Source: a virus
DNA: 64,000 bases
IMG/VR virus record: IMGVR_UViG_3300046507_000667
Location: 185,348-249,347 of that record
Direction: 5' to 3' (one strand)
In this document: in pieces, positions 13,044 through 64,000 of the stretch
Layout of the letters: every line of letters begins with the position of its first letter
Numbering within the stretch: position 1 is the stretch's first letter
Program-made: the position numbers and the translations under genes
The notes under the pieces: generated by a model
Databases searched by the model: none
Told to the model about the DNA's origin: nothing
The model's input: only the letters and a program-made list of their open reading frames with translations

Positions 13044-13430
13044 CTAAATCAATCCAAGAAGCTTTAAAGATTCTTCGTATTTTGGTGGAAGCTTGAAATT
13101 GTTTTCAACTCTAACACGAAAACTATAATGCATCTCTCTTTTGATTACATCTTTTTCGAATTGAAAGCTAGATGAATCTAACTCTACAAGAATGGATGCA
13201 ATCTTCATGCTATGAGTAGTACTAACATCAAACTTTTTGTAACCACTATTTTTTAATTTCGTTTCTAGATCAATTAGTAAAATGCTGATAATATGCTGCC
13301 ATGCATCATCAGCTGTAATGAATAACTGATTATCGTGAGTACTAGATTTTTCTTTATGTTTTTGATGATTTAATTCTTCAGTTGCTTTGAATGTTGTAAC
13401 TTCAGTAGTTGTTTTTTGAATAGCGTACAT
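13044..13430 (-). CDS. Family A small protein, 128 aa
   Basis: Last member of the first tandem array of the expanded family A. It has the N-terminal signature LFITADDAWQHI and the C-terminal signature LPPKYEESLKLLGL. Its ATG overlaps the stop of the upstream paralogue. Function unknown; other copies are described in the findings. Confidence 0.78.
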   Translation of the reverse strand: MYAIQKTTTEVTTFKATEELNHQKHKEKSSTHDNQLFITADDAWQHIISILLIDLETKLKNSGYKKFDVSTTHSMKIASILVELDSSSFQFEKDVIKREMHYSFRVRVENNFKLPPKYEESLKLLGLI

Positions 13431-13804
13431 TAGTTTTTTCCCACATTGTATCCATGAAGCTTTAAAATATTTAAAGCATCTTCTGGAATGGTATACATGC
13501 CAACTCCAACAGTAACTGTAATTTGAATTTTAGCATTGGAATCAGGTCTTGCAAGGACAATATGGAAGACACCTCCCATTGAATATTCTTCTTCAATGAA
13601 ACCATCTTGAAAGATTTCACCTTTAATGACTTTTTCTTTGATTTTATGAGCTACTTTAGATAACTCTTCTCTAGCTTGTTCTGGACTAAAGTAGAAGGTA
13701 GAATGATTGTGCCTAGCTTTAGGCTGCATTTCCTCTACTACTTTCTTATTAGGAGTATCAATCTCACGATACCATTGTGTTTCTGAAGAAAGAATATACA
13801 TCAT
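13430..13804 (-). CDS. Family A small protein, 124 aa
   Basis: Family A paralogue with FYFSPEQAREEL near the N-terminus and a divergent C-terminal signature IPEDALNILKLHGY. Either of two adjacent ATG codons (13804 or 13801) could start it; GAGG is upstream. Function unknown. Confidence 0.75.
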   Translation of the reverse strand: MMYILSSETQWYREIDTPNKKVVEEMQPKARHNHSTFYFSPEQAREELSKVAHKIKEKVIKGEIFQDGFIEEEYSMGGVFHIVLARPDSNAKIQITVTVGVGMYTIPEDALNILKLHGYNVGKN

Positions 13805-15464: not shown

Positions 15465-15798
15465 TCAATCCTAAAATCTGAAGAACTCCTTTTACTTCTT
15501 CAGAAATTTCCATTTTTTGAATAGTAAAAAATGTAATATATCGCCATTGAATTCCACTAACTACTTGAAGCCAAGTTACAAAGCCACCAGTCTTATTTCT
15601 AATTTTTGATATTTCAGAAACATTTTCTTCTAACTTTGCTTCATCAAATTCTAGTTCCATTAATCCGTCAGAAACTGCATTCATTGCTGACTGTTTAGTA
15701 GTAAATAGTTGCTTACGAATTTTAGTACTAAATGGAACGCTAGTTGTATCAAACTGCTCTGGAGTACAACGACGACGTTCGACAATTATGATATACAT
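15451..15798 (-). CDS. Family A small protein, 115 aa
   Basis: Family A paralogue: LFTTKQSAMNAVSD and C-terminal ISEEVKGVLQILGL. Begins IIIVERRRC, with a short beta strand as in the other members. Stop/start overlap with the upstream copy. Confidence 0.78.
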   Translation of the reverse strand: MYIIIVERRRCTPEQFDTTSVPFSTKIRKQLFTTKQSAMNAVSDGLMELEFDEAKLEENVSEISKIRNKTGGFVTWLQVVSGIQWRYITFFTIQKMEISEEVKGVLQILGLNEYA

Positions 15799-16199
15799 TA
15801 AAGTAATCCCATTAATTTTAAAGCACTTTCCATTTCAGAAGGAAGATCTACTTTATCCCATGTTAGAATTGCAGTAAATTCAAATTCTTCTTTTATTTGT
15901 TTATAATTTGCTAGAATAAATTTATCATATACTGTTGGAGAATTAGATAAATCTTTCTTTTTTAATGCTACTAAATCTAATGCTTTCCATCTAAAATTAA
16001 AAGCATTGGCATTTGGAGAAGGTTTATTAAAAGAAATAAGATCTTCTTTTGTTTTAGCATAACGTATTAAAATCTCAGCAATTTTTGATTCAGCAAATTC
16101 CTGTGCTTGATCTTTAGTTACAAATAATGGAGAGTAATTTGATTTATCAAATGGAAGTTTATTGTCACTTCTATATAAAGCTTTATTTACAATCCACAT
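15798..16199 (-). CDS. Family A small protein, 133 aa
   Basis: Family A paralogue: LFVTKDQAQEFAES and C-terminal LPSEMESALKLMGLL. Overlaps both neighbours by one base at TAATG-type junctions, consistent with coupled translation. Confidence 0.8.
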   Translation of the reverse strand: MWIVNKALYRSDNKLPFDKSNYSPLFVTKDQAQEFAESKIAEILIRYAKTKEDLISFNKPSPNANAFNFRWKALDLVALKKKDLSNSPTVYDKFILANYKQIKEEFEFTAILTWDKVDLPSEMESALKLMGLL

Positions 16200-53098: not shown

Positions 53099-54007
53099 TT
53101 ATGGTTGCTTACGAATCATTGGATACGACGACATTAGCATTGCATGAGGACCATATAAGAAGTTTTGTAGGTTTCTCTCAAAATCCTTTATTGCTTTACT
53201 ACGACTAGGTTCTATTGATTCAGGTTCAAGCCTAACCATATCCATTGGCATCATTCCATAAATACCAGCACTTATTGCTTCGATATTTGGAAATTGACGA
53301 TCCATTATCAATTGATAAATAATGACATAGTAAAGTTTGCTTACATCATCAATCAGTAAGAAATCTTTTGGTACATCAAAAGTATCAAGAAACGCTTCCA
53401 TAATATCACCGGAAGTATTTTCTGTATGATCAAACTCTGCTGCAATATACTCAATCATTGGTTGACGTTCTTGATTGAGATCAAATGGATCAGAAATATG
53501 AAACTCGATCCAGTAATGAATTAAAAGGTCAATCACTTGCTCTTTAGTTGACTTTGAAGCACTTTGAAGACTTTGTGGTAGCTGACGATTCCAACTATTC
53601 AATTCAATAAGAAATTCTCGATCAGCTAGGTCACTGAGAATTCGAAAGCACTTGAAATATACATCATAGAATACAATGAAACTGCATACATATGATTCAA
53701 TATACATGAAATGACAATGGTTGAGATCTTCATCCATCATCTTATCAATATATGCAATAGACTCTGTAATATCAGTGATATCTGCATCAGTAAGGATGGT
53801 AGCTTCACCCTCAATGAATTTAGTAACTAAACCATTTAGACCTGTGAAATCATCACAGGTATGCATGAATCGTTTAAGATGCTGATAGTAGAAGTCTTCA
53901 AAAGCTGACATATTAGTCACTCCTGAATAATCTACACGACCATGAAATACGTCAAGTAAAGACTGGAACGGAATTGGTAGTTCTTCTTTATTCATATTAG
54001 TATCCAT
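53099..54007 (-). CDS. Family D hypothetical protein, 302 aa
   Basis: Distantly related to the two proteins upstream at 54.2-55.8 kb: EQVIDLLIHYWIEFHISDPF aligns with their VDLLFTQWALGGKDF and ILYSWAFGQHDF segments. Helical, acidic, with conserved Trp. Function unknown. Alternative start at ATG 53995, which has a better GGA upstream. Confidence 0.74.
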   Translation of the reverse strand: MDTNMNKEELPIPFQSLLDVFHGRVDYSGVTNMSAFEDFYYQHLKRFMHTCDDFTGLNGLVTKFIEGEATILTDADITDITESIAYIDKMMDEDLNHCHFMYIESYVCSFIVFYDVYFKCFRILSDLADREFLIELNSWNRQLPQSLQSASKSTKEQVIDLLIHYWIEFHISDPFDLNQERQPMIEYIAAEFDHTENTSGDIMEAFLDTFDVPKDFLLIDDVSKLYYVIIYQLIMDRQFPNIEAISAGIYGMMPMDMVRLEPESIEPSRSKAIKDFERNLQNFLYGPHAMLMSSYPMIRKQP

Positions 54008-54024
54008 ATTTAGTCAAAAAAGAA

Positions 54025-54044
54025 ACCGTGGTTAAATCCACGGT
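54025..54044 (-). terminator. Terminator hairpin
   Basis: ACCGTGG/CCACGGT stem extended by GAA/TTC-like pairs, T-run after it on the minus strand; after the 59-aa gene. Confidence 0.75.
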
Positions 54045-54051
54045 CTCTATA

Positions 54052-54231
54052 CTACCAGAGATTAGGTACCTTTACTCGTCTTTCACCTGGAAGGTAGGTA
54101 TTAAGACCTTTTACAATTCTTTCAATTTCTCTAAATTTTATAGAAAGATTCTCATATTTCTTACTAAGATCGTCATTCCTTTTTCTAAGAGTTATGATTT
54201 CTTGCTCTAGCTGCTCATTGCTTTTTGGCAT
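54052..54231 (-). CDS. Small coiled-coil protein, 59 aa
   Basis: MPKSNEQLEQEIITLRKRND and following heptads form a clear coiled coil (about 5-45), ending in a basic/aromatic tail (RRVKVPNLW). ATG 54231 overlaps the upstream stop by 17 nt. Probably an oligomeric accessory protein of the upstream family D protein. Confidence 0.65.
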   Translation of the reverse strand: MPKSNEQLEQEIITLRKRNDDLSKKYENLSIKFREIERIVKGLNTYLPGERRVKVPNLW

Positions 54232-55003
54232 AGCTGAAAAATGGTTCATCTTTCCAAGTTAGTGAATCAAAGACCAAGAAATCAATCTTAGTTTTGGTAG
54301 TATTACAACCTAGAGTATTATTAACATTAATAAAATACTGATACAGATCACCAACTCCAGTATACTTGACAACCTCATTGAATCTTTCATCAGGTGTCTT
54401 AGTCATATCAATGATACGAATAAACCGTTGTTCGATTGGAAGATTCTGATCAAAAGCATCACTAAAGTCTTTACCGCCAAGTGCCCACTGAGTGAACAAA
54501 AGATCTACTACATCAATAAGATCCATACGGGAAGAGACATCAAGTTGATGATACTGAGCCTTTTCTTCGAAACCAACAGGAACTTTATTATCATGCTTTT
54601 GAAGCTCACCATCGATCCAAATACGATACGAATTTACATTCGGATCATACAAAATATCTGATTGTACTTCTTCATATACAGTAAAAATACGTCGAATATT
54701 TGCTTCTTGCTTCTTAAAATCATGAGCAAGGTAAGCGATTGCATCTAGGAGGCTAAATACTTTAGTCTGCTCAAATGAATCAGCAAACTGTTCCATGATA
54801 TTATTGAAAACAGTATCTTCAGTATTACCAATTTCCTTCATATTAGTGAAGAAAAGACCATTGGGTCGTAAGGTAATTAGATAATCAAAGTAACCTGCTA
54901 GAAGATCTAGCCTTTGATTATATGCTGAAAAATCTGTAATACCATAACGATCGGACGATGCTTTAATCTCTTTTACATCTACATCGTTAAAGATAGCTTG
55001 CAT
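54215..55003 (-). CDS. Family D hypothetical protein, 262 aa
   Basis: Paralogue of the next gene upstream: shared RPNGLFFTNMKEI (PDGVFMGMVKEY there), EEVQSDILYDP (DEIQCDIVWDE), VDLLFTQWALGGKDF, and a common end FDSLTWK. No known family. Function unknown; perhaps a virion or replication accessory. Confidence 0.76.
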   Translation of the reverse strand: MQAIFNDVDVKEIKASSDRYGITDFSAYNQRLDLLAGYFDYLITLRPNGLFFTNMKEIGNTEDTVFNNIMEQFADSFEQTKVFSLLDAIAYLAHDFKKQEANIRRIFTVYEEVQSDILYDPNVNSYRIWIDGELQKHDNKVPVGFEEKAQYHQLDVSSRMDLIDVVDLLFTQWALGGKDFSDAFDQNLPIEQRFIRIIDMTKTPDERFNEVVKYTGVGDLYQYFINVNNTLGCNTTKTKIDFLVFDSLTWKDEPFFSYAKKQ

Positions 55004-55037
55004 GATTTATTTTAGAAGAATAAAGAAAAAAATAAAT

Positions 55038-55066
55038 ACCCTAACCCTCTTTTTGAAGGTTAGGGT
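55038..55066 (-). terminator. Terminator hairpin, ACCCTAACC variant
   Basis: ACCCTAACC/GGTTAGGGT stem, same design as 43978-44005, after the 249-aa gene. Confidence 0.82.
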
Positions 55067-55074
55067 TTATCACG

Positions 55075-55824
55075 TTACTTCCAAGTCAGTTGATCGAAAA
55101 TGATTTCATCGAGACCTTGAGCTTCTCGATTAACATCTGGCTCATCATCAACCCAGATTCCATCAATAAACTTACCTCGAATATAGAAGTGAGCAACACC
55201 TGAATGTTTAGCTACTTGTACGAATCGCTCTACTTCTGATTTATTCATATCAATGTTATTAACATAATCACTGATATTATCTTTACGGAATGAAGCAAAG
55301 TCATGTTGACCAAATGCCCATGAGTAGAGAATACCATCAGCAATTTCTAGGAAACTCATTGCACTTAGATTTTCTACTGTTGCACGATCTTGACTTAGCT
55401 CAGATTCACTATTCCTCATTGTGAGGATAGTATCAATCCATTGGCGGTAGCATTGCTTTTCTTCATCCCATACAATATCACATTGAATCTCGTCATGATA
55501 TGTGAAATGATGTCGATGATTTGCCAATGGATGACGGAATTCGCCATCTAGATATTGAAGGACTTGTAGAACGCCGTCTACTTGGTCTTCATCTAGGTTA
55601 TGGTTATTATCTACAATAATATCCAAGATGGATTGATGGTCTGGTGTCTTATACTCTTTTACCATTCCCATGAAAACACCATCTGGTTTTGCTTTAACTA
55701 CTTTTGCTACATATGCAAGTAAGAGTTCTAGTTTCTCTAGATATTTTTTCTTATCAGTCTTAATGTCAATACCAGTGATAAACATCTGATCAACAGATTC
55801 TTCGCTCGATACTAGCAGAGTCAT
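55075..55824 (-). CDS. Family D hypothetical protein, 249 aa
   Basis: Paralogue of 54215-55003 (see shared motifs there). The C-terminus IIFDQLTWK matches the relative's FDSLTWK. I start at ATG 55824 (GGAAGAGA just upstream); the longer frame needs TTG. The leader between promoter 55885 and the start has a GATAGG/CCTATC hairpin. Confidence 0.76.
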   Translation of the reverse strand: MTLLVSSEESVDQMFITGIDIKTDKKKYLEKLELLLAYVAKVVKAKPDGVFMGMVKEYKTPDHQSILDIIVDNNHNLDEDQVDGVLQVLQYLDGEFRHPLANHRHHFTYHDEIQCDIVWDEEKQCYRQWIDTILTMRNSESELSQDRATVENLSAMSFLEIADGILYSWAFGQHDFASFRKDNISDYVNNIDMNKSEVERFVQVAKHSGVAHFYIRGKFIDGIWVDDEPDVNREAQGLDEIIFDQLTWK

Positions 55825-55884
55825 TTCTCTTCCTTTTCCTTTAAGTATTAGTGCGATAGGCAAATTACTTTACCTATCACATTA

Positions 55885-55897: not shown

Positions 55898-56959
55898 TCA
55901 TTTGAGTTTAAACACTTTTTCTTTTATTTTGTCCTTGCTTACCCCAAAGTCTTTTTCTTTCTTAAACGTATTATAGTGAATACGAATAGAATTAAAGTTA
56001 TCGTAATCCAAGATAAACTTATAGTAATCTAGATCAACATCATTATCCGAATACATATCAAGATTCATGCTTAGGAATCCAAGTCGTCTTAGCATTTTTA
56101 CCACTAATAGAAATGACTTACCATTAGCACTACAAAAGACTGTATCTTTAGACTTTTCTTTGTCATAAAGATTTAGCCATACTGAAGTAATATCCATAAC
56201 ACCTTCAGTTAAGACTAAATTCAAAGTTGGTGACAGTAGATCTAGTTCACCACCAATTGTATAGATTTTACTACCTATATCAAATGGTCTATTCATTGAC
56301 TCAGTATAGTAACGTCGTCCACTATGATGATCTTGAGTGTGTCGAAAACCCATATAGTTAGTATCCATTGATAGAAATCCCAATGAATACTTCTCTAAGA
56401 AAGTTCTCAAGCTAGCCAAACCATTTGACTGCTCATAATACTCTTTTAGATGCTCCATTTCATTCAATTTCATAAAAGAATTCAATGAAGTAACTATCTT
56501 TAAATCTTCTAGATCTTGCATCGTTAAATCAACACCCATTCGATCTACTAAATATTCGATCTTGTCTCGATAATGCTTCTTACCTAGACTAATTGGAGGT
56601 CTCTTAAAACGTTTCTTTTCTAGAAATGGGTTATCAGTATCACTGACATAACGACCTGTATCTCTTAAAGTCTTTTTAGAAGTCTTACCAATTCGATTGA
56701 TTAGATCTTGGTCATCAACTTCCATATCTCTAAGAGATCCATTATTCAAGAATCCCTTAGTATTGCAACGCTGGCAATAAAAAGCAAATGGACTGGTAGT
56801 GGAGATATATAAGTGAGCATGTGTTAAATCATTCTTCGAGTCACCACAATATGGACACCGAATAATCAACTCACTACCAGAAGTATTACGATAAACTACT
56901 TTACTATTAGACCTTAGGTTTTGCTCGAACTCAACTAGTAAGCTTGAGCTATCTGACAT
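55898..56959 (-). CDS. DNA primase (zinc-finger plus TOPRIM)
   Basis: 353 aa. N-terminal CHC2-type zinc finger: CPYCGDSKND, HAHLYI, FYCQRCNTKG (C35, C38, H49, C62, C65). TOPRIM acidic residues in VLTEGVMD (E252) and MYSDNDVD (D305, D307). This is the DnaG/T4 gp61-type arrangement that makes RNA primers on the lagging strand. The start ATG overlaps the upstream stop (TGATG). A T4 gp41-type helicase is not in the window. Confidence 0.88.
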   Translation of the reverse strand: MSDSSSLLVEFEQNLRSNSKVVYRNTSGSELIIRCPYCGDSKNDLTHAHLYISTTSPFAFYCQRCNTKGFLNNGSLRDMEVDDQDLINRIGKTSKKTLRDTGRYVSDTDNPFLEKKRFKRPPISLGKKHYRDKIEYLVDRMGVDLTMQDLEDLKIVTSLNSFMKLNEMEHLKEYYEQSNGLASLRTFLEKYSLGFLSMDTNYMGFRHTQDHHSGRRYYTESMNRPFDIGSKIYTIGGELDLLSPTLNLVLTEGVMDITSVWLNLYDKEKSKDTVFCSANGKSFLLVVKMLRRLGFLSMNLDMYSDNDVDLDYYKFILDYDNFNSIRIHYNTFKKEKDFGVSKDKIKEKVFKLK

Positions 56960-57229: not shown

Positions 57230-58696
57230 TTATAGTTGCTCCACATAATTAAGGATTTCGACCATTGCTGATTTAATACTGATTTCCTTGGTAGGCTGAT
57301 AAGGCTCACCATTAGGTAGATTATACTCAGCAAAGTCTGTATTGATAACTTCACCAATAAATTGAGTAATCACTGTAATATCAGCTTTGGTATCGAGATG
57401 CTTATACTTATCGGCAATATTCTTAAAGACAGATGATTCTTTAATCTCTAAGAAATTCTTACCACGAGTAAAATTGTGTTTGATGGTATGCTTTGGTACT
57501 GGCTTACCAAGAAGAATATAGCTAATAAATGGATAGTTATTACGTTCAAACCATTCTTTTGCAATAAGAACTACCTTAACATAGTCCTCTTTATTCATCA
57601 TATAAGAATCAATTCCTTTACCAATCTGATTTGAGATAAAGAAATTGAGAATTTTGGTTTGCCCTGTATGAATGTCAATATGCTTCTTATAATAATCAAA
57701 TAGTGCAGGATCGACATACTTCATATTACGATCAATGAAGTTAGCGATATCTTCACGCATCAATACAATTTGAAGCTCACTAGATGTCTTCAGTAGTTTC
57801 TGTTCAACCTTTACAAAAGGATTGGAAGCATCTGAATCAGTCTTAGTAATACTCAGTGGCTTATAGGTTAACCGGAAGTTAGCAGTAAAATTGTATTCAA
57901 TTTGTTTCTTAATAACAACGTGAAAGAATGAGACAATTGACTTATTAACATCAAGCTTTGGAAGAATACTTGTCAATACATTACGATGGATTTCAATAGC
58001 CATTGTCTTATCATTGATAGATAAATTCTTCAAATAAGACCACATGACCTTATCAGAATACAATGTATTTGCTACTGCTGTTTCAACAAACTTCTGAATC
58101 TTGATGACTAGATCCAGTGGTTCACCATCATCATCAAAGTTGAACTTCTGGAGAATATGGTGGACAACTTCTAGAAAGAGTGTATCTTCTTTACGAATAT
58201 TATGTACTGCCATGAAATGACAGAGAAGAGGAATCACAGTCCGGAAAAGGATTGCAGAACCAATAATTCGCTTTGCATAGGAATCTTTGAACTGCAATTG
58301 ATTGTCTTTAGAAGGACTTTCAATAGTGATTTGATAATTCTCTTCAACGTAATCATAAATAGATTGAATTAGAGGTTCATCCTCAATAATATAATCACGA
58401 ATTGCTTCTGCAAGACGGATACGATCTTCTTGGCTATCACCATATTCACCTTGGTCCAGTAGCCCCTTGATAGTCAAATATGTTTCTGCAAGATGTGGGT
58501 TCTTTCCCAAAAAAGTATTTACATCGTCAATGAAAATATCAATTGACTTATGGAAAACACGCTTCTTAAGAAAGCTAAATCCAAACGACACGGTATCCAA
58601 AAGGCTTTCATCGGAGATATGTCCTTCAAAAACTTTATTCTTGAAGTCGATGTTGACAATTTTGTCTCCGTTGTGTGTTACAAATTTAGCGGCCAT
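57230..58696 (-). CDS. Large hypothetical protein, 488 aa
   Basis: Unrecognised. Helical, Ile/Lys/Asp-rich, no enzyme motif visible. First gene of an operon that continues with the 89-aa protein and primase, which hints at a replication role. RBS AGGAAAAG. Promoter motif 58738-58747. Confidence 0.78.
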   Translation of the reverse strand: MAAKFVTHNGDKIVNIDFKNKVFEGHISDESLLDTVSFGFSFLKKRVFHKSIDIFIDDVNTFLGKNPHLAETYLTIKGLLDQGEYGDSQEDRIRLAEAIRDYIIEDEPLIQSIYDYVEENYQITIESPSKDNQLQFKDSYAKRIIGSAILFRTVIPLLCHFMAVHNIRKEDTLFLEVVHHILQKFNFDDDGEPLDLVIKIQKFVETAVANTLYSDKVMWSYLKNLSINDKTMAIEIHRNVLTSILPKLDVNKSIVSFFHVVIKKQIEYNFTANFRLTYKPLSITKTDSDASNPFVKVEQKLLKTSSELQIVLMREDIANFIDRNMKYVDPALFDYYKKHIDIHTGQTKILNFFISNQIGKGIDSYMMNKEDYVKVVLIAKEWFERNNYPFISYILLGKPVPKHTIKHNFTRGKNFLEIKESSVFKNIADKYKHLDTKADITVITQFIGEVINTDFAEYNLPNGEPYQPTKEISIKSAMVEILNYVEQL

Positions 58697-58737
58697 GCTT
58701 TTCCTAATTAAAAGATTTATTAAAGTACGTCAATATT

Positions 58738-58747
58738 ATAATATATT
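58738..58747 (-). promoter_or_regulatory. Phage promoter motif (ATATATTAT core)
   Basis: Minus-strand AATATATTAT, 41 nt before the 488-aa gene; drives the primase operon. Confidence 0.63.
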
Positions 58748-58753
58748 TATACT

Positions 58754-59650
58754 TTATTTTTTAACTTTGTTATTAACTTTATTATTCAACTTATTGTCAA
58801 CTTTGTTATTGACTGTAAAGTTAGCTTTATTTTTACCAGTATTGGTAACTGAAATACCTTTCTTAGAACGATTCTTTCTACCCTTCTCAAGATGATCCAA
58901 ACCAGCAGTGATAGTCTCTTTAGGAGCCTGTCGTGCTATACGTTTAGCCTTCTTTTCTGCAATTTTTGTATGCTCCGCAGCAGTTTTAGCTTTATTGTAT
59001 TCTTCTAACTTAGTGACAGAAGAAGGTACACTTTGCTTAAATTTAATCTTATTTAGCGGAACCATCGATGTAGCATAAGCACTTCGATCTAATAGATGAT
59101 TATCTTTAAGATAAATCAGTGCAAAAGTAATGCTCTTTTCAAAGAACATGATTGCATCTGGGTTACGCTTTTCTGGATAAGTATCTAGTGCTTTCTTAGC
59201 AAGCTTATCTTTCAAGAACTCAATTAAGAGATCATGAAAATTGAAAATATAAGCATATGTAAAGTTAAATGATGGGCCATTCGTAAAGAAACGAATATTG
59301 TAAGTAGTCAATGATGTTGGAGTTCCTTCAACTTCTTGAAACTCAAATACGACATCATAGAATAGATCATCATAAGATTCTGAAGGTACTTTGACAGTTA
59401 CAAAGATACTTGAGGCTACTCTAAAATAACTATGGGCAAATTTCTTACCCCTTCTTAGCATATTAGCAAGTTTTGATCTAATAGAATCAAGATAAAGCTT
59501 TGCTTGAGCTGAGGCATTTCCAGGATTGCCTGTTGGATTAGTAAGGAAAGAATTTACAGTAAATGTCTTAGGAACTTTCTTTTCATTCCCAATGGTCTGT
59601 AAATCTTTTGGACTTACTTTACCTATAGGCGCTGCATTCGGCTGAGCCAT
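58754..59650 (-). CDS. Hypothetical protein, 298 aa, with Asn/Lys repeat tail
   Basis: Residues 40-200 form an aromatic-rich globular domain (YFRVASSIFVTVKVPSESY, FNFTYAYIFNFHD). The tail is basic (EKKAKRIARQAPKE, KGRKNRSKKG) and ends in tandem NNKVDNKLNNKVNNKV, about four 4-residue repeats. Unrecognised; a nucleic-acid-binding virion protein is plausible. Separated from the chaperonin by a strong terminator. Confidence 0.73.
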   Translation of the reverse strand: MAQPNAAPIGKVSPKDLQTIGNEKKVPKTFTVNSFLTNPTGNPGNASAQAKLYLDSIRSKLANMLRRGKKFAHSYFRVASSIFVTVKVPSESYDDLFYDVVFEFQEVEGTPTSLTTYNIRFFTNGPSFNFTYAYIFNFHDLLIEFLKDKLAKKALDTYPEKRNPDAIMFFEKSITFALIYLKDNHLLDRSAYATSMVPLNKIKFKQSVPSSVTKLEEYNKAKTAAEHTKIAEKKAKRIARQAPKETITAGLDHLEKGRKNRSKKGISVTNTGKNKANFTVNNKVDNKLNNKVNNKVKK

Positions 59651-59673
59651 AATTATAACACCTAAAATGAAAA

Positions 59674-59716
59674 AATCCCGATATATTCCTATTGTTAGTT
59701 GGAATATATCGGGATT
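59674..59716 (-). terminator. Terminator hairpin, 16-bp stem
   Basis: AATCCCGATATATTCC/GGAATATATCGGGATT perfect stem after the chaperonin, minus-strand T-run after it. Confidence 0.85.
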
Positions 59717-59735
59717 AGAATTACATCAATTTGTA

Positions 59736-61649
59736 TTAAAGGGACAATTGATTTGAATTAAGTAGTAGACCTACAATAGAGAATGATGCCCTTAAAATTT
59801 CAAGGTCTGTCTCTACTGGAGCTAAAACTGAAGTAGTTGTAATACTTTCAATTTCATCATTTACAATATTAAGAATCTTTGGGAAGCTCTTAGCATTGCA
59901 TTCAATTTCACCTACACTTAGTTCAATTGAATCTTCATAGAATGTATTAACCTTAGTTGGCATATCATTGATATATGATAGCCATGCCTCATAATCATTC
60001 TCTGCATCTGTCGGCATATCACGATTCTCAAATGGAATCATAGCTAGACTAACGTATGCAATAATTAAATCATTAATAACGTTCCATGCACACATATCTT
60101 CATTGTATTTATATAGATTCAATGATGGATCTACTTCATACAATGCTTTAAGAGTAATCAATGCATACAATGGAACAACGTTACCACCCATTGTATAACC
60201 ATTACGCATTACTGACTGACAAGCTAAAACTGAATCTTCTACTAGTTCTTTGATAGAAGTCTTTTCATCTTCAGTACGTCCACCAACAAAGATAGTTGAA
60301 TGAACACCTACTAGACTTGCTAGACGATTACGTAACTGACCACGCTTAATGATTAGATTCTTGGAAGTCTCATCAAGTTCTTTCTGAATATCAGCCATAC
60401 GTTTAGTATATGCTTCAGTACTCATACGAACTCCAGCACCAGTTTCAAATAATACTCCTTGAGGAGTAATAGTAACTTTACGTGCATTACCAATAAATGA
60501 GCCAAGATCCATATCTTTAATATTGTCTGGAGATACTTGTGAAAGACCTAATGGGTCAGTCTTAATATAAGCTGCCAAATCAAGGAATTTCTCATTAGCA
60601 TCATTACTTTCTAGACTTTCTGTCTTAAGATAGTATACTGAAAGTTCTTTAGCTAAGAATGATTCCTGTACAATCTTTTGAATAATTTCAGCTTGATATA
60701 CATCAGCAATAACTACGATTGGAGGAAGCTTTCCATCCTTACCATTAGCCACTACAGACATATTAGCTTTGATACCATCCACAATCTTTGAATGGAAATC
60801 GAAAAATTCATAACCTTGTAAGATCATAGGGTTCTCTAGCTCTACTGAAGTCTCTGACTTAAATAGAGAAGGATGAACCATACTTAATGCAGTAGTATGA
60901 TAGCCATAACGATTATTGATCTTAAGACCTTCATTATCGTCTGGAGCAAGCTTGATAGCTACTACTGAATGTGAGCTAAGAGTTGACATAAGTTGTGCAA
61001 CTTCTTGACCAATACTCTTATCATTATTATTTGATAAGGTTGCTACAGTAGTTAGAATACGAAGCTTATCTTCTTGTGACAATTCATCAAGTCGATATGT
61101 ATAATAGCGCTTAATGATAGTCTCTAGATCTTTTTGAAGCAGGTCTAAAAATGATACAAACTGCTTACGAGTACGGAAAGTATCTAGAATACTTTGATCA
61201 TTTTCATCAAATGTATCTTTGAGTACTTTATATACTTCATTAGCTGCCAGAATAGCTGATGTTGAACCATCACCAACCTTTTGTACTAGATTAGATGAAA
61301 TACTCATCACTAAACGATAGATAGTATCAGCACTAATGGTTGGAATCTTCATTGACTTAAGGATAGCTAAACCATCCTTAGTTACTAATTGCTCACCACC
61401 TTGACGAATTACTGTATTCGCACCATATGGACCATATGATTTACGAAGTACATCTGAAATTTCTTGAAGAACCTTTGATGTATTGTCGGTAAGAGTTTTA
61501 GCATCAAACATGTTCTCAATAAGCTTACTCTTAGTAGACTCTGTCTTGACAATTTCACCTGCAGGGGTATCATTAAAGTCAATGTCAGATAGCTTATTTT
61601 CTGCTACTAGTTCACGAATGAATGCTTTAATAGCTGCCTTGATAGTCAT
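59736..61649 (-). CDS. GroEL-like (Cpn60) chaperonin
   Basis: 637 aa, longer than bacterial GroEL (about 548). SYGPYGANTVIRQGGEQLVT (71-90) matches GroEL LGPKGRNVVLDK...ITKDG, and VGDGSTSAILAANEV (125-139) is the GDGTT ATP motif. The C-terminal equatorial part has EDSVLACQSVMRNGYTMGGN, like the VEDAL...GVVAGGG stretch. A chaperonin could fold the phage's own large virion proteins independently of host GroEL. No co-chaperonin gene was recognised in the window. RBS AGGAAAG; terminator follows. Confidence 0.92.
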   Translation of the reverse strand: MTIKAAIKAFIRELVAENKLSDIDFNDTPAGEIVKTESTKSKLIENMFDAKTLTDNTSKVLQEISDVLRKSYGPYGANTVIRQGGEQLVTKDGLAILKSMKIPTISADTIYRLVMSISSNLVQKVGDGSTSAILAANEVYKVLKDTFDENDQSILDTFRTRKQFVSFLDLLQKDLETIIKRYYTYRLDELSQEDKLRILTTVATLSNNNDKSIGQEVAQLMSTLSSHSVVAIKLAPDDNEGLKINNRYGYHTTALSMVHPSLFKSETSVELENPMILQGYEFFDFHSKIVDGIKANMSVVANGKDGKLPPIVVIADVYQAEIIQKIVQESFLAKELSVYYLKTESLESNDANEKFLDLAAYIKTDPLGLSQVSPDNIKDMDLGSFIGNARKVTITPQGVLFETGAGVRMSTEAYTKRMADIQKELDETSKNLIIKRGQLRNRLASLVGVHSTIFVGGRTEDEKTSIKELVEDSVLACQSVMRNGYTMGGNVVPLYALITLKALYEVDPSLNLYKYNEDMCAWNVINDLIIAYVSLAMIPFENRDMPTDAENDYEAWLSYINDMPTKVNTFYEDSIELSVGEIECNAKSFPKILNIVNDEIESITTTSVLAPVETDLEILRASFSIVGLLLNSNQLSL

Positions 61650-61685
61650 TGATTCTTTCCTAAATTTTTATGAGTAAATAAATAG

Positions 61686-61716
61686 CCCGAACTTCTTGTC
61701 TAATAAGAAGTTCGGG
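61686..61716 (-). terminator. Terminator hairpin
   Basis: CCCGAACTTCTT/AAGAAGTTCGGG perfect 12-bp stem, 6 nt after the stop of the -1 frame extension. Confidence 0.85.
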
Positions 61717-61721
61717 TATTT

Positions 61722-61979
61722 TTAAGTTCTCTTTCGTTGTTGTTCTTTCATCGCATCTTCTTCAGCTTTCTTCTTTTCTTTAAGATAATCAATCTGAGCA
61801 GTAGTCAGATCATTTAAGAAAGGGATTGGAATCTGGAGAAGTTCAGAGAGTGACATCCGACCTTGAAATAAATCCAAAGTAGATACCACTCCCTTTAGCT
61901 GCATCTTATAGAATTCTTCTGATGTAGCTTCTGCCTCAGCAACTACTTCAATTATACCGAAGTTGCTTCGGCGATAGCG
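61722..61979 (-). CDS. -1 frame extension of the gp26-like protein (85 residues)
   Basis: Reading continues in the -1 frame from the slippery site as RYRRSNFGIIEVV..., open for 85 codons to the stop at 61722, directly before a terminator. The domain holds LSELLQIPIPFLNDL and ends in a very charged helix (YLKEKKKAEEDAMKEQQRKR). A short separate gene could start at ATG 61904, but no good ribosome-binding site precedes it and frame continuity favours frameshifting. The fused product would be 542 aa (base 61979 read twice). Confidence 0.75.
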   Translation of the reverse strand, partial: RYRRSNFGIIEVVAEAEATSEEFYKMQLKGVVSTLDLFQGRMSLSELLQIPIPFLNDLTTAQIDYLKEKKKAEEDAMKEQQRKRT

Positions 61980-63349
61980 AAAAAAAGCAGACTTGTAATA
62001 TCTACGTCAATATTTTCAATTAGCTTCTTGCAAGTATCACCAGCACAATTAAAAGCAGGAATACGATACTGTACTCGATATTGACGAATACGATCGCTAA
62101 TTGCCTTATTTAGTACCTTTAGATCACCTGCTGAAAGATTAGCGATTGAAGGTAGAATCTGATGAATATCAGAAACTTCGTAGTATCGAACTTGACCACG
62201 GCTAAATGCTTCAACATCTGGCACCATGATTTGCTTGATATACTTGTGAAGAACGATAATTTCATCTTCGAACTTACCAGCAAACTTTTGTGTCAGACTC
62301 ATATTGTCTAGCATACGCTGTAGTGTTGGCGTAAGTAGTTCAATAACGATACGTGAATCTGGAAGAATAATACGCTTGGTCTTAGCTACCATTGAGTTAC
62401 TTAGGAACTCACGACCACGGTTTACACCTTGAAGAACATCAGCAACATATGTACCAGCTTTTTCTTGATCGACTACTTCAATTAGAGTGTCTGGTAATAG
62501 CTTGATGTTGTTTTTCGCAGCACAATGGGGACATTGCACAGTGTATTCTGTAGCTTGAGGGAAAGTAGGATAGTAGATACCATACAGAAGTGTTTCATAA
62601 TCTTCATCCGCAGTTACGTTCAGAAAATCAGCAAATTTCATTGAACCAACTGATGTTTCTGCAATTTTAGAGAAAACTAGCTTTAGTAGCTTAATTGTCT
62701 GATCGTAAGGAGTTCCACGGAAATTACGAACTGCAATCTTATCGTTATTATTCAGTGCCTTAAATGAAAGACGATAGCCACTCTTTAGAGCAATAACAGG
62801 GAATGATGGTGATGCATCAATTGTGTTAATGATCTGCAGTTGTTGTTGAATTGGTAGTGGATTATCGGCTTTAACAGGTACAATGGCATCTACGTCCACT
62901 GATACATTATTAAGAATATTCCTAACCTTATCAACTTGAGCACCAGCACCTTGAGCTTTGCGCTGTGCAAATAGCTCTTGCATTGCATCTAGTAATAGAT
63001 TAACTACTTCCATACGGTTAGGATCTTTTTCATCAGCCTCAACATCTTCAGCTAGAGTAGCTTCAAGAGTTGGCTTGACTTCTGCCTTAACAGGAGTAGC
63101 GGGTATGGCTGGAATTACAGCTACTGGATCAATGGTAGTTGATTGAACAGCAGTGCTTACTGGTTGTGCTAGTTCTTGTGGCAATGTAGTTGATGATTGC
63201 TGTGCAATTGCTTCTTGAGCTTGTTGTACTGCCATCTGTTCAGGAGTCAGATCAGCATCACTAATAGCTGTTGTTGGTGCAGCTACTTGACCGGGAGTCT
63301 GAAGTGAACTGATTAGGTCTGTGACTGAACCAAATGATTGATTTTCCAT
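61952..63349 (-). CDS. Baseplate hub protein / tail-assembly chaperone-like, T4 gp26-like, zero frame
   Basis: 465 aa. N-terminal 120 residues are Gln/Ala/Pro/Thr-rich; the C-terminal part has the gp26-type core with VQCPHCAAKN (C273, C276) and a second Cys pair near the end (FNCAGDTCKKL). T4 gp26 sits in the baseplate hub assembly. The zero frame ends AEATSV. The gene carries a -1 frameshift site, so a minority of ribosomes should give a 542-aa fusion. ATG 63349 (GGAAAG upstream) is preferred over TTG 63361. Confidence 0.82.
   Translation of the reverse strand: MENQSFGSVTDLISSLQTPGQVAAPTTAISDADLTPEQMAVQQAQEAIAQQSSTTLPQELAQPVSTAVQSTTIDPVAVIPAIPATPVKAEVKPTLEATLAEDVEADEKDPNRMEVVNLLLDAMQELFAQRKAQGAGAQVDKVRNILNNVSVDVDAIVPVKADNPLPIQQQLQIINTIDASPSFPVIALKSGYRLSFKALNNNDKIAVRNFRGTPYDQTIKLLKLVFSKIAETSVGSMKFADFLNVTADEDYETLLYGIYYPTFPQATEYTVQCPHCAAKNNIKLLPDTLIEVVDQEKAGTYVADVLQGVNRGREFLSNSMVAKTKRIILPDSRIVIELLTPTLQRMLDNMSLTQKFAGKFEDEIIVLHKYIKQIMVPDVEAFSRGQVRYYEVSDIHQILPSIANLSAGDLKVLNKAISDRIRQYRVQYRIPAFNCAGDTCKKLIENIDVDITSLLFFAIAEATSV
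61956..61985 (-). promoter_or_regulatory. -1 ribosomal frameshift site: slippery heptamer and hairpin
   Basis: Minus strand: T TTT TTC (61985-61979) in frame CTT TTT TTC, the canonical X XXY YYZ heptamer; a 7-nt spacer (61978-61972); then the stem-loop CCGAAG-CAA-CTTCGG (61971-61957), with an extra G.U pair at the base. Confidence 0.82.
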
Positions 63350-63380
63350 AATTCTTTCCAAAGAAGTTATTGTGATACGA

Positions 63381-63430
63381 TAGGAGAAACAGACTTCGAC
63401 TAATTTGAAGTTCGAATTCTGAGTCTCCTA
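63381..63430 (-). terminator. Long imperfect hairpin between gp25- and gp26-like genes
   Basis: TAGGAGA/TCTCCTA outer stem with further pairing inside (ACTTCGA with TTTGAAGT-like). May terminate or attenuate after the gp25-like gene. Confidence 0.55.
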
Positions 63431-63453
63431 CCAAAATGTGATAAAAGTTCTTA

Positions 63454-63957
63454 TTAGATATAAATCTGTGAAACTAAGCTACCAGATCTTGTCACATTAC
63501 CATCTACTGTGATAGCGAATGCATTTGAGCTATTAAATTGTGTATTAGTATTCTTTAGCTGAAAAATGATTGCTACTTTATTTCGATCGGTAATCTGAGG
63601 ATTTGGTGTTAAAGTAAAATCAACGATTTGATCGGTTGGAAGCCATATATCAATTTGACTTTGAATAGCTTGCTTGAGATCTGAAAGAGTAATACTATCA
63701 GCAATTTCCATTAGATAGTTACGGATACCAACCCCCATACTTGGTGCTGCAGGATTGGTACCACGTTCCATTAATAGTAAATCTCTCAAGCGGAAAGCTA
63801 ATGCAATGTAATCTGAGTATGTTTGTGTTTGATTGAATGCATTCATAGTGAAAGAAATTTCATCTTTCAATGCTTCAGTCTGTGCATCTGTAAATACATT
63901 GCTAAATGTAGCTAAAGTAGAAGCAATCGACGCATTAGGAGAGATTGGTGCTGGCAT
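63454..63957 (-). CDS. Baseplate wedge protein, T4 gp25-like
   Basis: 167 aa. AFRLRDLLLMERGTNPAAPS followed by GVGIRNYLME matches the gp25 core (I-R-N-x-L-L-T-x2-G-S...P-x-F-G), and IWLPTDQIVDFTLTPNPQ matches its C-terminal Trp-Pro region. gp25 is the conserved wedge component shared with type VI secretion TssE. ATG 63957 is 1 nt past the stop of the upstream gene. Confidence 0.85.
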   Translation of the reverse strand: MPAPISPNASIASTLATFSNVFTDAQTEALKDEISFTMNAFNQTQTYSDYIALAFRLRDLLLMERGTNPAAPSMGVGIRNYLMEIADSITLSDLKQAIQSQIDIWLPTDQIVDFTLTPNPQITDRNKVAIIFQLKNTNTQFNSSNAFAITVDGNVTRSGSLVSQIYI

Positions 63958-63958
63958 A

Positions 63959-64000
63959 TCACTGCTCGTCTAGATTGATTTTACGATGATGATCTTCATC
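63959..64000 (-). CDS. C-terminal end of an upstream gene (partial)
   Basis: Minus-strand codons DEDHHRKINLDEQ then TGA; the gene runs off the window. It directly precedes the gp25-like gene, so a baseplate protein is likely, but 13 residues cannot identify it. Confidence 0.55.
   Translation of the reverse strand, partial: DEDHHRKINLDEQ

Follow-up and report, generated by a model that had tools for sequence, protein, structure and literature searches.

The window, the whole 64,000 nt stretch of viral DNA analysed here, carries on its minus strand a gp26-like ORF at 61952–63349, with an ATG start and a 465 aa product in the 0 frame (the short form). The ORF is preceded by a gene for a gp25-like baseplate wedge protein (63454–63957, minus strand) and followed by a gene for a GroEL-like chaperonin (59736–61649, minus strand), and both neighbours are the same in relatives. 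The region near its 3′ end reads CTG CTT TTT TTC GCT. A slippery heptamer, T_TTT_TTC (61979–61985), lies here inside a run of 7 T with its codons TTT TTC in phase, immediately after the Leu codon CTT (61987–61985). A 7 nt spacer (61978–61972) separates the heptamer from a hairpin with a 6 bp stem, CCGAAG-CAA-CTTCGG (61957–61971), which is a candidate stimulator, and the 0-frame stop TAA (61954–61952) lies 3′ of the hairpin. In the −1 frame the sequence from the heptamer reads RYRRSNFG... and forms an extension (61722–61979) of 85 codons plus a stop at 61724–61722, with an LLDLF-type block akin to the tail of gp51; the predicted −1 fusion is 542 aa. A terminator-like hairpin (61686–61716) is located 3′ of the extension, its stem starting at 61716, after the extension stop. 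The preliminary description of this locus had proposed a canonical −1 programmed frameshift, and all of its figures hold, namely the heptamer phase, the 7 nt spacer, the 6 bp stem loop, the 85-codon frame and the lengths of 465 and 542 aa. The parts of the canonical signal (in-phase heptamer, spacer and stem loop) are thus all present in the window.

Several other minus-strand ORFs of the window can be described. The chaperonin (59736–61649), directly 3′ of the frameshift gene, is a divergent GroEL/Cpn60-like protein of 637 aa, and it may act on a tail protein. An ORF at 57230–58696 matches a phage multisubunit RNA polymerase family (phrog_25005), an ORF at 55898–56959 matches a DNA primase family (phrog_19847), and three adjacent ORFs of 262–302 aa at 53099–55863 look like diverged paralogues.

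In-phase heptamers within the last 40 codons that are followed by a long −1 frame occur in several of the 89 ORFs of at least 100 aa in the 64 kb window, mostly coinciding with overlap by the next gene. The sequence of a single genome is therefore suggestive rather than decisive, and comparison is needed. Two further minus-strand ORFs with such ends (13044–13804 and 15798–16199) are probably ordinary overlapping genes. The 70 nt located 3′ of the slip site are more stably folded than any of 200 shuffled sequences (z −3.1), whereas in an 81 nt fold a competing stem is preferred over the hairpin (z −1.5). No conservation of the hairpin 3′ of the slip site was found among near relatives.

Since the slip site is a homopolymer run, a sequencing error or a decaying gene could be considered, with one base missing from what would be a single 542 aa frame. 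However, an independent contig with 44 differences from the window in this gene (L016, IMGVR_UViG_3300046694_000359) retains the run of 7 T and is identical to the window throughout the extension, which makes a homopolymer error unlikely, and all relatives show the same arrangement of frames in different sequences. The error was rejected on the identical 7 T run of L016, and we give this explanation practically no weight. Contig L016 is 99% identical to positions 57955–64000 of the window. It has 63 differences over 6 kb, of which 44 fall within the initial 1344 nt of the gp26-like gene, whereas the last 284 nt, with the slip site and the extension, are free of differences; local recombination or constraint could be behind this pattern.

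A phage nucleotide search gave no match, and scans of genome contigs found no relatives. With tblastn, 20 phage records were matched, including phiR1-37, AR9/PBS1/Goe21, BpSp, LPJP1 and Staphylococcus jumbo phages. Full-length protein identity to these relatives is 22–37% in a seven-sequence alignment. The gene order common to the group is gp25-like, gp26-like, small ORF and chaperonin, with one additional ORF ahead of the chaperonin in the phages of Gram-positive hosts. Nine genomes were compared, the window among them, and each has its small ORF in the −1 frame relative to the gp26-like gene, overlapping the 3′ end of that gene with no stop interrupting the frame from that point on; further staphylococcal records give the same stop-free fusion. 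In each of the nine relatives that could be followed into the extension (phiR1-37, AR9/PBS1, Goe21, BpSp and Staphylococcus jumbo phages), it is in the −1 frame and begins at a shared Leu-Phe site. From this slip site to the end of the extension, no genome has a stop in the −1 frame, and the other frames contain 5–9 and 8–18.

Annotators call a small gene at this position in several phages (phiR1-37 g242, AR9 gp229, PALS2_264 and others), and the window itself has an in-frame ATG at extension codon 26. The extension might accordingly be a separate small gene with its own start, or be translated by ribosomes that reinitiate once they have terminated at the gp26-like stop. However, six of nine genomes lack an in-frame ATG, GTG or TTG ahead of the conserved block, and the annotated starts are mostly at or within this LLDLF block. 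In every genome this frame can be read from the Leu-Phe site, where CTT is invariant, without meeting a stop, and the same arrangement, in either +1 or −1, is found in 38 of 38 more distant loci described below. An independent small gene was rejected because start codons are missing in most genomes, and we regard this explanation, reinitiation included, as very improbable.

The Leu codon at the slip site is CTT in eight of eight divergent genomes, and three other invariant Leu columns in the same genomes use 2–3 different codons each. CTT would be the sole Leu codon that allows tRNA-Phe to re-pair at −1 (UUY to UUU). Within the jumbo phage group the tandem heptamer is found only in the window and in BpSp, where TTT TTT follows CTT. 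The slip sites of other relatives are CTT TTT CGG, CTT TTT CAT, CTT TTT ACC and CTT TTC AAG, with merely 4–5 T (CTTTTC, CTTTTTC). As only U_UUY is kept in phiR1-37, AR9 and the staphylococcal phages, the heptamer and hairpin are not the conserved signal of the near relatives, and the term ‘canonical’ suits the window but not these phages. Loss of the heptamer with retention of the extension, which the preliminary description had set against its own proposal, is literally what these three show. What is conserved nevertheless is the −1 frame together with the Phe slip site, so the recoding claim stands, with the extension, its frame and its start point all retained across divergent genomes and frameshifting the probable cause.

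Transcriptional rather than ribosomal slippage on the T run would have the same outcome at the protein level, and the 7 T of the window and the TTT TTT after CTT in BpSp would suit it. However, the 4–5 T of the other relatives are short for polymerase slippage and the frame is still kept, and distant members of the family shift in both directions at TTY TTT C. Transcriptional slippage is consequently judged improbable, if a little less so than a separate gene.

One relative, LPJP1 (L011/L020), has the same Leu-Phe site (ATG CTT TTT CGT), and its extension is out of sight because the record breaks just past the slip site. The opposite end of this ‘complete’ record does not carry the extension onward, and the record may be incomplete at that point.

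The family of the core was assigned by profile comparison. A profile of 37 distant gp26-family proteins matches the core of the window group with a probability of 97 (P 9e-11) and a score of 77.6, against a maximum of 23.6 for a shuffled-column null, and matches T4 gp26 with a probability of 96.8. The profile alignment to the window group terminates at the Phe of the slip site. PF12322, the T4 gp26/gp51 family, matches BpSp gp286 (E 1.2e-4) and, weakly, phiR1-37 g241; it gave no match to the window protein itself, and Pfam gave nothing above cut-off for the window protein or for the extension. Among PHROGs, the sole result for the window protein is phrog_18873 (function unknown), which covers the jumbo-group family, and the match of the extension to phrog_27255 is weak and non-significant. 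An AlphaFold model of the window protein is of low confidence (pLDDT 48) because only four sequences were usable. With this model, Foldseek finds, after members of the protein's own family, baseplate hub assembly proteins of T4-like phages, as well as the SP-15 hub subunit and Aeromonas phage gp26, with a probability of 1.0 and E values of 2e-5 to 1.6e-3; no convincing match was found among the solved structures searched. Two cysteine pairs, C273/C276 and C435/C440, are invariant in seven genomes and frame a core that ends at the Phe motif, and matching cysteines are present in A8 and T4 gp26. The profile, Foldseek and BpSp matches thus bear out the gp26-like identity proposed earlier, and membership of the window gene in the T4 gp26/gp51 family is supported at the level of sequence comparison.

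More distant members also have an extension that starts at an FF motif at the end of the core. It is in the +1 frame in SP-15, LIS04, GXN1 and Mel-JY01, and in the −1 frame in PA5oct, Atu_ph07 and LR756511; T_TTT_TTC is present in PA5oct and Atu_ph07. PF12322 gave no match in Mel-JY01, which was placed in the family by tblastn (E 7e-6). As a test of prediction, IMG/VR loci were retrieved with core profiles. Of 41 loci analysed, 3 run off the contig, and in all 38 testable loci an alternative frame is open from the Phe site to at least 42 codons beyond the stop. This frame is −1 in 11 loci (most with T_TTT_TTC) and +1 in 27 (mostly with TTY TTT CG). The 38 loci are not all independent, some being close relatives or the same phage resampled (L070 is Atu_ph07). 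Among control ORFs from the same loci, 13 of 100 have a frame open for at least 40 codons, and 4 of 100 have such a frame without start codons. A subgroup (L104, L107, L108, L109 and L113) has LFNP, encoded with TTY AAT CCC, in place of FF; judging from this sequence, a +1 slip may occur there at CCC rather than at Phe codons.

In T4, gp26 and gp51 are paralogues across nearly all of gp26 (probability 99.5, P 6e-23), and gp51 is the longer by a C-terminal tail. Copy number follows the presence of a predicted frameshift. Two PF12322 genes are found in T4, SFHK24, phiAS4, P4-3, Xman and CP220, and one in the frameshift phages SP-15, LIS04, GXN1, Atu_ph07, LR756511 and PA5oct, so that the rule is based on 12 genomes together with the jumbo group. 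No comparable extension was found in the gp26 genes of T4-like phages; where the −1 frame continues, the open stretch belongs to gene 25, which has a separate start. In two T4-like phages, L028 and L029, gene 25 uses the −1 frame relative to gene 26, and this frame has no stop as far back as the end of gene 26; these are likely overlapping genes, and a fusion product is possible.

The preliminary description had also linked the extension to gp51. Extensions of the distant frameshift phages match gp51 tails (probability 87; score 31.4 against a null maximum of 13.5) and also match the extensions of the window group (27.0 against 11.2). Compared directly, window-group extensions and gp51 tails match weakly, with 6 of 150 shuffles as good. 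The link thus holds by way of the intermediates and not in the direct comparison, and a relationship of the window extension to the C-terminal tail of gp51 via intermediate phages is supported on these sequence scores.

Gene position bears on function. In SP-15 the order is sheath, tube (phrog_45), gp26-like gene, small ORF and tape measure (phrog_167, E 4e-17), and the annotation of LIS04 likewise has the tape measure downstream of the gp26-like gene. By gene order, the gp26-like gene of SP-15 occupies the position of lambda G/T, which favours the chaperone role of the G/GT type that had been suggested for the window gene. In the window group the gene is located between the gp25-like gene and the chaperonin, away from the tape measure.

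Both T4 proteins, gp26 and gp51, are classed among the hub assembly chaperones; gp51 is needed yet missing from the T4 particle, and the T4 hub includes the tape measure protein gp29 (PMC3004832). In BpSp virions the gp25-like Gp287 is present, and Gp286 and Gp285 appear nowhere in the paper (PMC4870245); the gp26-like locus is not among the DC4 structural proteins shown (PMC10638138). At the reported depth, absence from these two virion proteomes is weak evidence for a non-virion role.

The frameshift might be real and the product nevertheless a gp26-family protein that acts in hub assembly only, its resemblance to G/GT being convergent. The hub role described for the T4 proteins and the adjoining gp25-like gene in the window group would fit such a restriction; the location of the SP-15 and LIS04 genes between tube and tape measure would not, and neither would the presence of the T4 tape measure, gp29, in the hub. 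The hub and tape-measure roles may for the same reason be one. We consider the restricted role unlikely, although it is the most probable of the alternatives set out here.

The window gene very probably encodes a tail assembly chaperone of a jumbo myophage, the single-gene counterpart of T4 gp26/gp51, which would be made in short and long forms by −1 slippage. The frames can be read directly from the sequences, as can the way in which the site and its frame are conserved, the relationship within the family, the copy numbers and the synteny of SP-15 and LIS04. We infer the slippage itself, its efficiency, binding to the tape measure and tube, and the manner of the slip, whether a tandem step, a single P-site step or a transcriptional one. 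Most ribosomes would stop at 61952 and release the 465 aa short form, which is gp26-like and would act like lambda gpG. A minority would slip back one base while decoding the Phe codons UUU UUC within U_UUU_UUC, giving the 542 aa long form with its 85 aa tail, which is gp51-like and would act like gpGT. The pair would hold the tape measure protein in solution and bring in tube subunits while the hub and tail are assembled, and would itself stay out of the virion. In T4-like phages an equivalent short and long pair would come from the paralogous genes 26 and 51.

According to a recoding review (Atkins 2016, PMC5009743), long-tailed phages ‘except T4’ have conserved G-T frameshifting. A literature search, mostly at title and abstract level and with few subscription papers, found nothing linking gp26/gp51 to frameshifting. 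We think it probable, with somewhat less confidence than for the window gene, that the gp26/gp51 family is the missing G/GT of contractile-tailed phages. The ancestor would have been one gene with a frameshift at a run of Phe codons at the end of the core. In T4-like phages, recoding would have given way to a duplication that produced a short gene, 26, and a long gene, 51, and between other lineages the slip direction (−1 or +1) would have changed with its structural position unchanged. If gp26 and gp51 are such a duplicated pair, the T4 exception is explained, and both roles become directly testable in T4. This reading would also join two ORFs annotated as unrelated hypotheticals in PBS1, AR9, phiR1-37, Staphylococcus jumbo phages and SP-15, and would reveal an unannotated extension in PA5oct. 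The family would further offer a natural set of phages for comparing −1 and +1 slippage at one slip site.

Three known systems come close to the window gene. The pairs of phiR1-37 (g241/g242), AR9 (gp230/gp229), PBS1 (gp122/gp121) and the Staphylococcus jumbo phages are orthologues in the same gene order. They are annotated as two unrelated hypothetical proteins, unlike the fused reading proposed for the window, and their slip site is CTT TTY without the tandem heptamer (BpSp excepted), again unlike the window. T4 gp26/gp51 (PF12322, phrog_150, with phrog_634 for the C-terminal part of gp51) share a homologous core with the same Phe endpoint as the window protein, and the C-terminal tail of gp51 is probably homologous, through intermediates, to the window extension. 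However, T4-like phages have two genes and no frameshift, whereas the window has one gene with an out-of-frame extension, and the window protein has a longer N-terminal region than gp26 or gp51.

The tail assembly chaperones of the lambda G/GT type were reportedly described, with their conserved translational frameshift, by Xu, Hendrix and Duda in 2004. The window gene resembles them as one gene with a short form and a predicted long form extended by frameshifting, with the frameshift site near the 3′ end and an extension of about 70–90 aa; in the relatives SP-15 and LIS04, the position between tube and tape measure is also shared. Unlike lambda G/GT, it has two cysteine pairs and a sequence that places it in the T4 gp26/gp51 family, and the putative slip site is a run of Phe codons at which the shift would be −1 or +1 according to lineage.
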